Shown here in pieces: positions 1-33,560 of a DNA stretch of 64,000 nt. The notes under the pieces were generated by a model, which saw nothing but the letters and a program-made list of their open reading frames with translations, had not been told where the DNA came from and searched no databases. Positions within the stretch are counted from its first letter, which is position 1. Each line of letters starts with the position of its first letter. Origin of the DNA: a sulfur-oxidizing endosymbiont of Gigantopelta aegis (GTDB taxonomy: Bacteria; Pseudomonadota; Gammaproteobacteria; GRL18); NCBI RefSeq assembly GCF_016097415.1, contig NZ_JAEHGE010000001.1, positions 4,046,610 to 4,110,609 of the forward strand. Reading direction: 5' to 3'. The position numbers and the translations under genes are program-made.

Positions 1-209
1 AAGGAAATTGCTGGGACAATGCTGTATCAGAGAGCTTCTTTCATAGTTTGAAAACTGAATTGACGCACCATTGTCGATTCAAAACCAGAGTAGAAGCAAA
101 GCAGGCAATATTTGAATATATTGAGGTATTTTATAATCGGGAGCGACTTCATTCGGCTAATGATTATTTGTCACCAGTCGATTATGAAATACAGCAGGAA
201 ATAGCTTAA
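1..209 (+). CDS. IS3-family transposase OrfB, C-terminal fragment
   Basis: Frame 3 from the window start encodes the last part of Orf[21 protein letters not shown], then the C-terminus ending QQEIA. The Glu in SESFF is the third residue of the DDE catalytic triad. The sequence is in frame to the TAA at 207-209. The N-terminus lies beyond the window. Confidence 0.85.
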   Translation, partial: GNCWDNAVSESFFHSLKTELTHHCRFKTRVEAKQAIFEYIEVFYNRERLHSANDYLSPVDYEIQQEIA

Positions 210-500
210 ATCGATTGATTGAAGAGGGGTAAAAGGCGACATAAATGCCGCCCATTACCGTTGACGGCCATCGGCTCCTCAGCCTGTGCCGTGAAGATAT
301 TGTAACAGGATCATTACCGTTGTGAAAATACCTTGGGTGAATGGAACGGCTCTATCGTTCCAGAGGGCAAAGCCCTTTCTCTTCATCTGTTTAAAGTTAA
401 CATGAGAAACTAAAATGATAGGAAATACAAAATGACAAAAATCACTTGAAACAGCCAAAAAAATATTTAGAAAACTGTCCGGAAAAGTGTTGACACATCA
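1..500 (+). mobile_element. IS-A copy 1 (IS3 family), right part, cut by window edge
   Basis: This is the 3' third of the IS3-family element repeated through the window. It holds the orfB C-terminus and the long non-coding tail, and ends in the right terminal repeat GTGTTGACACATCA at 500. The left end lies outside the window, so its target duplication cannot be checked; the right flank starts TGT. It cuts into the 5' part of an older transposase gene that continues from 501. It faces copy 2 right-end to right-end, only 369 bp away. Confidence 0.95.
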
Positions 501-21732: not shown

Positions 21733-22879
21733 TTGAATATCACACTCTAATTTTAAACTCTAAACAGAAATAATTAATGAGAATGGACCAGTGATATTTC
21801 TCTAACGGATGAGATATTGTAAAATGGACGAAATGATTTTTGCCTTGGGCACTGCTGTTCCTGAGCATAAAATAGCACAAAAACAATTAACAGATAGAAC
21901 AATTTCACCACTCAAGCTGCCTAGAAAGCTCGACTATTGGTTAAAAAAGTGTCTGAACTATCGGATATTCAGAATCGGTTTTCTGTGCTTGAAGACTATA
22001 AATCTCCACTTGCTCAAGGTGCTTTCTATGGTAAAGACTTTCCTGTGAAAGAGCCAACCATGAGTGATCGTATGGTAATTTATAAACAAGAAGCACCACG
22101 CCTTGCCCTGCAAGCAGCTAAAGAAGCCATTGCTCAATGGGGTGAGGATGCGAATAAAATCACTCATATTATTTCCATCTCCTGTACGGGGTTCATCGCT
22201 CCTGGCATCGAAGTTTCATTGATTAAAGACCTACAGCTTAACAATGATGTACGCCGTTTTGGCTTAAATTTTATGGGCTGTATGGCTGCCTTTAATGGTT
22301 TATCTGCAGCACAAGCCTTAGCTGCTGAAGATCCAAAAATCGAGTCTTAGTTGTTTGCACCGAGCTATGCACGCTCCATTATCAGCGTAGTGAAAAAGAG
22401 AAACCTTATTAGGTCACGTCTTATTTGGTGATGGTGCTGCCTGTGCTATTGTGGGCAACACACCAACAGAAAATGAAAACCCACTTTGGCGATTTGAAAA
22501 CAAAGCCTCATGGCTATTGGATGATAGTCAAAATGAGATGACCTGGATATCTGGTGATAACGCTTATATTATGAAGCTCACATCAAAAGTTCCCAAGTTA
22601 ATTAAAAAACAAATCCATGCTTTATTCTCTAAGCTGGTCAGCAAAGAACAATATAAAGATGCATTGTGGGCTATTCACCCTGGTGGCAAGGCGATTATTG
22701 ATGGTATACAGGAATCATTAAAACTCAGTCATAAAGATACTCAAGAGTCACGTGATGTACTTAATGATTATGGCAATATGTCCAGCCCGACCATTCTATT
22801 TGTACTCAAACAATTGGCCCAAAAACGCCATGAAAAGAAATGGACATTTGCTTTAGGTTTGGCCGGACTGAGCATTGAA

Positions 22880-24376
<1,497 letters not shown>

Positions 24377-29110: not shown

Positions 29111-29178
29111 AGTACCCAGTTCTATTAAACCAAAACAGATTAATTTAACATGAGTTCTGGATACAAGTTAACTTAATA

Positions 29179-29270
29179 GTGGTGCGCTTCGTTCCTCAGC
29201 AGCACCCTACGGTTGTCTGCAAGTGAAGTATTGGAGCAGTAGGATGCTGCTGAGGAACGAAGCACATCAC
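29179..29270. repeat. REP-like palindrome between convergent genes
   Basis: GTGGTGCGCTTCGTTCCTCA...CCTAC pairs with GTAGGATGCTGCTGAGGAAC...CATCAC over about 32 bp with few mismatches. It lies between the oxidoreductase stop and the stop of the converging pseudokinase gene, a usual place for such repeats and for bidirectional termination. It shares the GTAGGATG...CATC framework with 8305-8411 but has a different inner sequence. Confidence 0.75.
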
Positions 29271-29317
29271 AATAATACAAACTGAACAATACCGTTATTT
29301 ATTATCAAGAACTCAGG

Positions 29318-30628
29318 TTAATTTACCAAGGCCAAAGTATCTTTTTGCACAGGCTTCATTGATTGCTTATTTTTTTCAGCTCGTTTGATGGCTGCTAGGC
29401 GATTTTTTTGTTTAATATCAGCTTGTGTTAACTTCAGCTCTTCAATATTTGTTACTAAATCAGGATATTGAGTTTTATTCTTTTGAGCAGCAGTATACTC
29501 ACCGGGAAAGCGTATTTTTGTACGCTGTATTTCAGTGGGCACTTCAGCTTTAGTGTCAAACCATGCGGTATCCAGAGTATTAATGAGACTGAAAGTGGGA
29601 TTTTTCATATTAAAGAATGTAATACCGGAAAGCATTAGAAAAAAGACGGTGCTGGCGGCAAGACCTGTCATTATTGGCGTTTTATTATTCAATAGAAATT
29701 GATTTAATACCCCTCTAATAGAGGACTCATCATGGTTGGTCTTTTGCTCCAAAATCACGGGGAAATTATCACGTATGGCAGTGATTTTTATATTGCTAAC
29801 AGTTTCAAAAGCCTTATCTATTGCCTTATTATCAATACTATCATGTGCTAGGTGCTGATCGCTAACGAATGCTTCTGTTTGAATGTTTTGGCTTTTAAAA
29901 GCATCTTGTACCCGATTGATTTCCTGACGAAATTGCTGAATTGAATTAATTGAGTCATCCATCTGACTAGAAAACAATTTATTAATGGTTGTTTGCCAGC
30001 ATTTTGCTCTTTTACCACTCAGGCCATAAACAGGAATTTCTAGATAAGGCGTTGTTTCTCTATTAAGTAATTTAAAAAAAACTAAGCCTAGGCAACTCAA
30101 GTCCGATTGTGTATCAACCAATTGATTGAGTAGTAGCTCATCTTCACTAAAATGAATATCAGGACAGTTTTTTAATATTTGCGGAACAATTTCATATTCA
30201 GATAGGATGGTTTGATTATCTTTACTCAGAAAAATATTGCGCGGTTGGATATTGCCATGTTCTAGTTTTATTTTATTTATATACTCAAGTGCATCAATTA
30301 ACTGCTTAATGATCTGAGTAATTTGTTTCACTGGAAAGCCAAAAATCAATCTTGGGGCAATTGAACCATTAGGATAATAGTCCATAACGATATAACAATG
30401 CCGACCTGAAATTCCTGCATCATACACATGCATGCAATGCGTATGTTTAATTGATGTGAGTATTTTTATTTGCTTTTTAAATGCCTGACGAAATAAAAAC
30501 TGATTGGAAAGTGATGAATGAATGACTTTTATCGCCCTGATATCGCCCTGCACATTATGTGCTAGATAGAGCGACGCATATCTTCCTTTAGCAATACGAT
30601 ATTTTATAGTGTAACCAGGTATGTCCAT
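29318..30628 (-). CDS. Membrane-anchored serine/threonine kinase-like protein, probable pseudokinase
   Basis: The 436-residue protein starts at ATG 30628 after AAGGGAAGGGTAAA. Residues 1-250 form a Hanks-type kinase fold: glycine-loop-like IAKGRYASLYLAH, the Lys of beta-3 in RAIKVIHSS, the hinge IVMDYYPNGSI. The catalytic loop is HGNIQPRNIF in place of HRDxKPxN: the catalytic Asp is Asn and the following Lys is Gln. The Mg-binding DFG is replaced by SEY in QTILSEYEIV. One transmembrane helix (MTGLAASTVFFLMLSGITFF, about residue 330) precedes a basic extracytoplasmic tail. The lost catalytic residues argue for a scaffold or ligand sensor. It is followed on the same strand only by intergenic palindromic DNA; upstream lies the radical-SAM gene. 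Kinase fold confident, inactivity inferred. Confidence 0.85.
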   Translation of the reverse strand: MDIPGYTIKYRIAKGRYASLYLAHNVQGDIRAIKVIHSSLSNQFLFRQAFKKQIKILTSIKHTHCMHVYDAGISGRHCYIVMDYYPNGSIAPRLIFGFPVKQITQIIKQLIDALEYINKIKLEHGNIQPRNIFLSKDNQTILSEYEIVPQILKNCPDIHFSEDELLLNQLVDTQSDLSCLGLVFFKLLNRETTPYLEIPVYGLSGKRAKCWQTTINKLFSSQMDDSINSIQQFRQEINRVQDAFKSQNIQTEAFVSDQHLAHDSIDNKAIDKAFETVSNIKITAIRDNFPVILEQKTNHDESSIRGVLNQFLLNNKTPIMTGLAASTVFFLMLSGITFFNMKNPTFSLINTLDTAWFDTKAEVPTEIQRTKIRFPGEYTAAQKNKTQYPDLVTNIEELKLTQADIKQKNRLAAIKRAEKNKQSMKPVQKDTLALVN

Positions 30629-30865: not shown

Positions 30866-32377
30866 CTATTGTTTTATCAAGGGATTACCCTTAGAAGACC
30901 TCATGTTTTTATAAAACTCAGGCATGCCTTTTAAACCTGAAGATTTATAATCCTCCAATAGTGATGAAAGTATTTCTGCATTATCTTCATTAAAACAGTG
31001 GCTATAGCCATAATAAAGATAATCGTAGAGTTTCCTCATGGAAATTTGATGTGTTTTACCAGAGCTTTCATAGAGCCAATCAGTAAAAGCCAAAAAACGT
31101 TCAAAAGCTTGATCAGCTAATAAAACCTTGATTGATGAGGCAAAATTACCCGAATTAGCAATTAACTCCCAATAACGTGCAAATCGGCTAATCCTCTGAA
31201 TCAGTAAAAAGTCTATTTTATTAGTTGCCAGAATACTATATGGGGCATTAGTATCAAATACCATTTGATACTGTTCCGTATGACGAATAATCGGTGTGCC
31301 TCGCAGTCGTTTTAAGATGCCCAATTGAATATCATGGGGTTGTAATTGATAAAGTTGATTAAAACCACGAGCAAAGCTGGTCAAATCTTCATCAGGTAAG
31401 GCAAAAATTAAATCAGCATGAATATGGGCATTTGAATGCTCTCTTAACCAGGCTAAATTTGCTACAGTTTTACTATTGTCCTGCTTACGACTGATCAATT
31501 GCTGCACTTCGGGATTAAAACTCTGCACCCCCATTTCAAACTGCAAACTCCCCTGTGGGAAACGTTTAATTATTTCTTTAAGCGCATCAGGCAAGCGATC
31601 AGGAATAATTTCAAAATGTAAAAAAAGTGTATCATCCATACGCTCCAGAAAAAATTCAAGAATTTTTAGACTAGTTTGTATTTTTAAATTAAAGGTGCGA
31701 TCCACAAACTTAAAGTTGCGTGCACCTCGGTCATAAAGCTTTGACATTTCATTAAGAAACACATCAATATCAAAAGGAATAGAGGTCTTGTCTAAAGCGG
31801 ACAAACAGAATTCACATTTAAACGGACAGCCACGTGACGCCTCGACATAGAGCACTCTATTTTTTATATCTTCATCGCTATAGTATTGATAAGGTAATTT
31901 TATTTGATCGAGCTCAGGCTCTTTTTCCTGAAAAACTTTAGAATGTATGCTCAAGGTTTTCGACGGGCTGTCATCTCGATTTAATAATTGTCTACATAAG
32001 CGAGCAAACCGCGTGTCTGCAGCACCGGTAATTAGATAATCTGCGCTTTGAAATATTGCCTGTTGTTCATATTCATAACTCACTTCCGGCCCACCAATGA
32101 TAATAATGATTTCCGGACGAATATTTTTTATCAGCGCAATGACTTTACTCGTATGCTCCGTATTCCAAATATAGACACCAAAACCAATGATACATGGTGC
32201 TTTTTGCAAGAGCTTTTCAACAATGTCTGCTGGTCTCAAATTACTGGTAAATTCAAGGATATCGGTTTGTGCTTGTAGCTCGTTAAGATTAGCGTAGAGA
32301 TAACGTAAGCCAACGGCGGCATGGATATAACTGGCGTTAATCGTACAAAGAAGAATATCAGATTGTTTAGCAATCAT
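30866..32377 (-). CDS. B12-binding-domain radical SAM protein (DUF4080-type)
   Basis: The 503-residue protein has an N-terminal cobalamin-binding Rossmann domain (LLCTINASYIHAAVGLRYL, IGFGVYIWNTEH, IIIIGGPEVSYEYE). The radical-SAM cluster motif is RGCPFKCEFC near residue 185, the CxxxCxxC ligands of the 4Fe-4S cluster, followed by RNFKFVDRTFNLK and EMGVQSFNPEVQQLI typical of Elp3/HemN-like barrels. The C-terminal region (DUF4080-like) is helical. Such enzymes modify unknown substrates by methylation or rearrangement. The 165-bp gap between it and the Q/Y-rich protein gene upstream shows no clear signal. Family assignment is firm; reaction unknown. Confidence 0.88.
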   Translation of the reverse strand: MIAKQSDILLCTINASYIHAAVGLRYLYANLNELQAQTDILEFTSNLRPADIVEKLLQKAPCIIGFGVYIWNTEHTSKVIALIKNIRPEIIIIIGGPEVSYEYEQQAIFQSADYLITGAADTRFARLCRQLLNRDDSPSKTLSIHSKVFQEKEPELDQIKLPYQYYSDEDIKNRVLYVEASRGCPFKCEFCLSALDKTSIPFDIDVFLNEMSKLYDRGARNFKFVDRTFNLKIQTSLKILEFFLERMDDTLFLHFEIIPDRLPDALKEIIKRFPQGSLQFEMGVQSFNPEVQQLISRKQDNSKTVANLAWLREHSNAHIHADLIFALPDEDLTSFARGFNQLYQLQPHDIQLGILKRLRGTPIIRHTEQYQMVFDTNAPYSILATNKIDFLLIQRISRFARYWELIANSGNFASSIKVLLADQAFERFLAFTDWLYESSGKTHQISMRKLYDYLYYGYSHCFNEDNAEILSSLLEDYKSSGLKGMPEFYKNMRSSKGNPLIKQ

Positions 32378-32542: not shown

Positions 32543-33466
32543 TTATTGAGCAGGTTGTTGGTAAGGGTTGCCATATTGGTAAGGGTTTTGATAACCATTC
32601 TGATAAGCACCTTGATTACCATAGGGATTACCATATTGTGGCTGCCCGTATTGTGGTTGATACTGAGGTTGGCCATATTGGGGCTGAGCATAAGGTTGTT
32701 GATAATAGTTTTGTTGCTGAGGTGCTCCATATTGATATCCATAAGGTGTAGCTGCAGACTGTGCTTGAACTTGAGCGCTTACATCTTCAACCGCCTGCTC
32801 CGTCGTTTCATTAGCAGTTGTTGCCGCTGTATCAACAGCTTCTACCACGGGTGTCACAACAGTATCTACAGTCTGCATGGCAGAATCAGCCATTTTACCT
32901 GCCATATCAGCCATATTAGGCATCATACTTTGAGTGCTTTCAGGTATGTTGACTGGTTTGGATGTAGTTTCTGTTTTTAAGGCATCTGTTGCCGTATCTG
33001 TTACAGCATTAGCTTGTTGTTTTTCAGGCTTAGCCTCGGCAGCAACACCTGCTTCAACAGGAACAATCGCCGTTGTTACTACGGTTTTTTGTTCAATTTT
33101 TTCAACCACAACCGCTTCTGGCGTTGATTCAGTGGCTTCAATAGTAGCGATCGGGATGACTTCTACTGATTTAACTTTTTCAATTTGCACAATAATTGGC
33201 TCTAACACCATACCTTCATCTGTTCCCGCAACAGAGGCCATGTCACCATAACGTTGGGCACTATCATAAGAAATATAAAACCCCATACCAACAACCAATG
33301 CCAGTAGAATGACATAAAAACTCATATCTGAGGATGACGCTTGTGCCGAAGCTGTCTTTTTACCCTCTGAAGCCTTTTTACTCTCAGAAGCTTTGGAACC
33401 TTCGTTATTTATAGCACCCATTTTTTCCAGAGTGTCATTTAACTTATCACTTGTTTCTTTGTCCAT
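32543..33466 (-). CDS. Membrane protein with a Q/Y/N-rich repetitive C-terminus
   Basis: The start is set at the second ATG (33466), because the first overlaps a GGAGAG Shine-Dalgarno placed six bases before the second. The 307-residue product has a charged Lys/Ser/Ala-rich N-terminus, one transmembrane helix (FYVILLALVVGMGFYISYDS), then an acidic, Val/Glu/Thr-rich region with SVEVIPIATIEATES and Met-rich helices (MMPNMADMAGKMADSAMQ). It ends in about 65 residues made almost entirely of Q, Y, N, P and G (repeats of QPQYGQPQY, QNPYQYGNPYQQ). Such tails resemble prion-like or adhesive low-complexity segments. No family was recognised. It is probably inner-membrane anchored with the tail in the periplasm. 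Confidence 0.75.
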   Translation of the reverse strand: MDKETSDKLNDTLEKMGAINNEGSKASESKKASEGKKTASAQASSSDMSFYVILLALVVGMGFYISYDSAQRYGDMASVAGTDEGMVLEPIIVQIEKVKSVEVIPIATIEATESTPEAVVVEKIEQKTVVTTAIVPVEAGVAAEAKPEKQQANAVTDTATDALKTETTSKPVNIPESTQSMMPNMADMAGKMADSAMQTVDTVVTPVVEAVDTAATTANETTEQAVEDVSAQVQAQSAATPYGYQYGAPQQQNYYQQPYAQPQYGQPQYQPQYGQPQYGNPYGNQGAYQNGYQNPYQYGNPYQQPAQ

Positions 33467-33560
33467 GTCTCTCTCCATGTATTATTGTACAAAATAACCA
33501 TTTAATATTTACTAATTATCTAATACTATATCAATTAGCAGACAAATTAAAGCGTCATTT

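Follow-up and report, generated by a model that had tools for sequence, protein, structure and literature searches.

A transmembrane pseudokinase gene truncated by a mobile element, possibly the remnant of a barrel-linked trans-envelope system

The window analyzed here, a 64,000-nucleotide stretch of the 4.91-Mb genome of the Gigantopelta aegis endosymbiont (G000 in our genome comparison), encodes a membrane-anchored pseudokinase whose 3′ end has, with high confidence, been cut off by a MITE-like repeat. The gene belongs to a clade of pseudokinases whose other members share a C-terminal tetrapeptide and mostly lie beside the gene of a putative outer-membrane barrel. Taken as a whole, the explanation that the window gene is the remnant of a tag-docked, barrel-linked trans-envelope pseudokinase system stands, in our judgment, at an even balance between right and wrong.

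Anatomy, truncation, and kinship of the pseudokinase

The window ORF encodes 436 amino acids and scored 62.2 bits with the Pfam Pkinase profile (PF00069), whose cut-off is 31.7; no other Pfam domain was identified. Motif reading bore out the degenerate active site described in the earlier note: the HRD position reads H124-G-N, the lysine of HRDxKxxN is replaced by Q128 (N131 is kept), the DFG position reads S143-E-Y, and the ATP-anchoring β3 lysine, K34 in AIKVI, is retained. Lacking the aspartates of both HRD and DFG, the protein is predicted not to be an active Ser/Thr kinase. The one transmembrane (TM) helix reported to follow the kinase domain was likewise recovered as the only hydrophobic stretch above KD 1.6 (Table 1). 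An AlphaFold2 model of the protein alone had a mean pLDDT of 34.

Table 1. Features of the window and parts of the pseudokinase (window positions unless marked as residues).
Feature	Position	Strand	Basis or remark
MITE-like palindromic repeat, terminal inverted repeats TTAAC..	29145..29321	.	177 bp; BLAST, copy alignment
3′-truncated transmembrane pseudokinase ORF	29318..30628	-	Pfam, motifs, 52% identity to G004 orthologue over residues 1-419
Kinase domain	residues ~1-240		
TM helix	residues 319-337		Hydrophobicity
Residual tail	residues 338-436		
B12-binding/radical-SAM/DUF4080 enzyme	30866..32377	-	Pfam; not part of the pseudokinase system
One-TM protein with conserved NPYG/Q/Y-rich tail, partner of the radical-SAM enzyme	32543..33478	-	Not part of the pseudokinase system

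The reading frame stops 99 residues past the TM helix, with the C terminus LALVN at the MITE, whose right end provides the TAA stop codon (complement of 29318-29320); beyond the element lies an unrelated FAD gene. BLAST returned 73 matches to the MITE on both strands of its own genome, including five further near-full-length copies of 83 to 91% identity, and its terminal inverted repeats are identical at 17 of 19 bases as counted by eye. Because its stop codon falls within a repeated mobile element, we regard the ORF as 3′ truncated.

Relatives of the window kinase are few. Among 57 genomes (56 others plus its own), matches above 100 bits were restricted, besides the window itself, to G004 (the orthologue of Table 1) and G016 (34% identity over residues 1 to 242). 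A profile built from these three kinases and searched across 369 genomes of the class added two more pseudokinases, from G254 (motifs HLS and SEV) and G139 (HHG and GEI), which, among the places listed and with self matches set aside, ranked first and fourth. The 30 highest-ranking loci of that search comprised the window, the two new pseudokinases, and 23 loci with intact HRD and DFG (17 from the motif table, 6 read by eye); L059, L067, L070, and L071 were left out. Named genome contigs yielded one distant relative, a Pleurocapsa kinase, and viral contigs yielded none. Two of the relatives lie near Sox- and DsrL-like genes, as we presume these to be, a gene content by which the class searched is presumably Gammaproteobacteria.

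Both HRD and DFG are degenerate in all five pseudokinases, the HRD position reading HGN, HRN, HQS, HLS, or HHG, whereas every one of the other 23 rows of the motif table retains both aspartates. In a tree of 28 kinase domains a branch supported at 100/100 separated the five from the rest, and the same split received 100/100 when the columns of the glycine loop, the catalytic loop, and the activation segment were removed. Since the five form a single clade and the other 23 rows keep both aspartates, the loss of catalysis is probably ancestral to the clade. That both sites have also degenerated in four relatives of the window copy supports the earlier assignment of the protein as a pseudokinase. 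Between the window protein and its G004 orthologue the domain is 63 to 69% identical, peaking at 69% around the dead active site, whereas the linker is only 17% identical, so that the dead domain looks constrained.

All four relatives (582 [G004], 717, 851, and 827 amino acids) are longer than the window copy and have a predicted periplasmic tail of coiled coil or TPR. The window gene is a broken member of this clade, sharing its ancestry and its degenerate motifs and lacking both the C-terminal tag and a barrel gene in its genome, and its remnant is inferred to be nonfunctional or only partly functional. The truncated protein might still work as a short membrane pseudokinase, made of the cytosolic domain and TM helix, that has lost its link to the outer membrane; neither part contains a stop codon or frameshift, and the domain is well conserved relative to the intact G004 orthologue. 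Nevertheless, the protein lacks its tail, its tag, and its barrel partner, no second truncated example was seen, and an undecayed frame may merely reflect recent truncation, which leaves a functional short form rather unlikely.

The C-terminal tag and the putative outer-membrane barrel

The four intact pseudokinases end in FATF, FGTF, FGTF, and FGTF, and in three of them (G004, G016, and G139) the product of the preceding gene is a protein of about 265 amino acids with a signal peptide; in G254 the gene for this protein is present in the genome on a different contig from the pseudokinase, and in G004 it is split over two frames. The protein had no match in Pfam, NCBIfam, or the PDB. Strand-like alternating hydrophobicity gave z values of 1.1 to 3.7 in six such proteins, weak in some (1.1, 1.7, and 1.9), and negative values in two controls, and most of them end in phenylalanine. 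The strand-like alternation and C-terminal phenylalanine, together with the signal peptide, make an outer-membrane β-barrel the likely fold. As an aside, the barrel and pseudokinase genes of G139 directly follow an operon (L112:2-7114) that looks to us like type II secretion (gsp).

Homologues of the barrel were detected in 4 of 24 genomes in one search and in 14 of 369 genomes of the class in another, and were not detected in the window's own genome, among plasmids, or in any of the 398 genomes of a phylum-wide sample at E <= 1e-12. The search of 369 genomes located 15 barrel places, in 8 of which a neighboring gene ends in the tag. The tagged neighbors were diverse: two START-domain proteins in G007; the pseudokinase in G139; kinases in G221 (HRD and DFG intact), G331 (frame split), and G305 (ending in TPSF, aspartates present); and TPR-like proteins in G231 and G108. 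The remaining 7 places (G254, G075, G199, G126, G176, G055, and G056), 3 of them on short contigs or at contig ends, had no tagged neighbor, so the link between barrel and tag is not obligatory. Outside that search, the barrels of G004, G016, and G012 have a tagged neighbor and that of G001, at a contig end, has none.

Pattern searches further pointed to an association between tag and barrel. Across the 369 genomes, VFGTF followed by a stop matched 27 times, and 6 of these matches are the ends of ORFs of at least 100 amino acids; 5 of the 6, every one from among the 14 genomes with a barrel, encode a kinase or a TPR protein, and 4 lie directly beside the barrel gene (hypergeometric P of 2e-7 for VFGTF versus barrel genomes, uncorrected for relatedness, G108 and G231 being of one genus). 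The broader pattern F[GAPR][TS]F matched 123 times in six genomes (101 matches frame checked, 21 reading Trp, 1 left out), and only 5 of the 101 frame-checked matches end an ORF of more than 73 amino acids with a stop: the four pseudokinases and one START protein. START-domain proteins adjoining the barrel gene carry signal peptides and end in FPTF, YPSF, YPTF, or HPTF (L115, L116, and L117). The ending was also observed outside the barrel context in two proteins, a GntP-like transporter (L243) and a Pro/Ala-rich protein of G091 (L234:3237-3902, minus strand), which ends in LTPTF and has no adjacent barrel gene. Overall, the tag occurred on 14 of 593 ORFs in a non-neutral sample, many of whose loci had been fetched via the barrel or the motif.

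Periplasmic proteases and the barrel-assembly machinery read C-terminal aromatic residues, and many barrel proteins end in phenylalanine. F-x-T-F might accordingly be read by a general machine of this kind, with co-location reflecting joint regulation; the tag's final phenylalanine and the barrels that have no tagged neighbor are in keeping with such a reading. A general signal would, however, be expected on many proteins, whereas in the six genomes only those described above bear the F[GAPR][TS]F ending, and we consider this explanation unlikely.

A candidate envelope link and its comparison with known systems

In the system that we propose instead, docked through the tag, an intact member would have its pseudokinase domain in the cytosol, cross the inner membrane with one TM helix, and extend into the periplasm with a tail ending in F-[GA]-T-F. 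The tail would span the periplasm and dock by its tag on the barrel, or on something that the barrel recruits, so that an event at the outer membrane could reach the cytosolic domain; docking of the tail on the barrel is proposed tentatively. The pseudokinase domain would signal by binding a cytosolic partner rather than by phosphorylation, and related loci would have fitted a tag of this type to other proteins (intact kinases, secreted TPR proteins, and START-domain proteins). In the window, by contrast, the MITE has closed the reading frame after the TM helix, the further tail and the barrel gene are missing, and the remnant sits at a breakpoint next to an unrelated radical-SAM pair; on this account the window offers a clean case of a mobile element cutting such an envelope link.

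The earlier suggestion of an envelope association thereby stands for the intact relatives, with a putative outer-membrane barrel as the partner in place of the neighboring genes of the window that the note had named. A front that varies between active, dead, and absent kinase fits a module in which tag and barrel are the constant part. More generally, and again tentatively, the tetrapeptide (an aromatic or aliphatic residue, then [GAP]-[TS]-F) may be a docking tag for a dedicated barrel family, carried by periplasm-facing proteins that have no relation to one another (kinases both active and dead, TPR proteins, and START proteins) in a plug-in arrangement for trans-envelope signaling or tethering, in which the link can outlive the activity of the kinase. 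Should the tag prove to be a docking signal, it would represent a simple and unrecognized coupling of an outer-membrane protein to cytosolic signaling across the periplasm, and the intact relatives offer a concrete candidate partner and a four-residue handle. Literature searches that left most subscription papers outside their reach found nothing on this system under bacterial pseudokinases and the periplasm, and no publication on an FGTF or C-terminal phenylalanine tag in connection with the outer membrane.

Kinase activity might persist by some unusual mechanism although the aspartates are missing, as the β3 lysine is kept in all five clade members and the catalytic-loop asparagine in four; yet all five lack both the catalytic-loop and the metal-binding aspartate, and some also have a degenerate glycine loop, making residual activity very improbable.

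The clade shares with PknB-like Ser/Thr kinases the fold and the order of kinase domain, TM helix, and extracytoplasmic repeats, but differs from them in lacking the HRD and DFG aspartates, in having TPR or coiled coil in place of PASTA, and in having the C-terminal F-x-T-F and, in most members, an adjacent barrel gene. The type VI threonine-phosphorylation pathway of PpkA and TagQRST, in which outer-membrane input is reportedly thought to reach an inner-membrane kinase, is an analogy only: it has an active kinase and a lipoprotein and periplasmic relay, as against the barrel and C-terminal tag here. An assignment as anti-phage kinase was rejected, as the many PADLOC kinase models that matched the window protein did so weakly, reaching 80.7 bits at most, and by way of the domain they have in common; NCBIfam MAD6 was rejected at 48.5 bits against a cut-off of 460.

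Bacterial pseudokinases have hardly been studied experimentally, and a review lists seven annotated bacterial families whose functions it states to be unknown (PMC12599244). Nearest in kind, as described there, is EssB/YukC, a transmembrane pseudokinase of type VII secretion in which all three motifs are degraded (PMC12599244): it too is a single-pass membrane pseudokinase, one that works by binding, which for our clade is only proposed, and it differs in lineage, in context, and in the β3 lysine, which the clade keeps. Three families reported from proteobacteria were compared as the same review describes them (PMC12599244): GLW, in which GLW replaces HRD and the β3 lysine is missing; CP1, which has a COG3899 domain and no TM region; and DLHK, which keeps the HRD aspartate and has no TM region. 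The clade does not fit any of these as there described, a comparison covering three of the seven families and leaving out ActPs1-3 and DYD. Its varied HRD replacements and retained β3 lysine set it apart from GLW; the TM helix of the window protein, with no further Pfam domain, sets it apart from CP1, and the lost HRD aspartate together with that helix sets it apart from DLHK.

The neighboring radical-SAM pair

As the earlier note had it, the neighbors on the same strand are a radical-SAM enzyme and a membrane protein with a Q/Y-rich tail; Pfam identified the former, and the latter has one TM helix and Q, Y, G, P, and N as 90% of its last 70 residues. In 14 homologues of the Q/Y-rich protein these five residues make up 69 to 90% of the same stretch; 12 of the tails were picked by coordinates, a pattern search for Q/Y proteins having found only 2. 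Of 40 genomes, the window's own counted, 21 had a match to the radical-SAM protein and 16 to the Q/Y-rich protein. In the 14 genomes where the two were detected together, their genes were always adjacent; G018 and G025 encode the enzyme with no Q/Y partner detected. The Q/Y-rich tail may be the substrate of the enzyme. For DUF4080 itself no paper was found in a literature search that left out most subscription papers.

The pair was conserved without a kinase alongside in all 13 other genomes containing both genes, and no kinase was found within about 1.5 kb after the radical-SAM gene at any of the 15 other radical-SAM loci examined, where mostly oxidoreductase (subunit) or protease-like genes follow. 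In G004, the kinase orthologue and the pair lie on separate contigs (C288 and C207, respectively). Since the pair is conserved elsewhere without the kinase, the latter appears, as far as seen, to have joined it in the window's lineage only. That the three genes cooperate at the envelope, as had been proposed from their adjacency on one strand, is scarcely credible given this synteny, the gap of about 240 bp between the pseudokinase and radical-SAM genes, and surroundings rich in IS elements and MITEs, and we reject the trio with strong confidence. In rearranged genomes, as the window shows, gene neighbors can mislead. Elsewhere in the window, a gene that we take to be chalcone/type III polyketide synthase-like is broken over frames (21809-22882), within a stretch (~16-28 kb) full of what are presumably transposase fragments.
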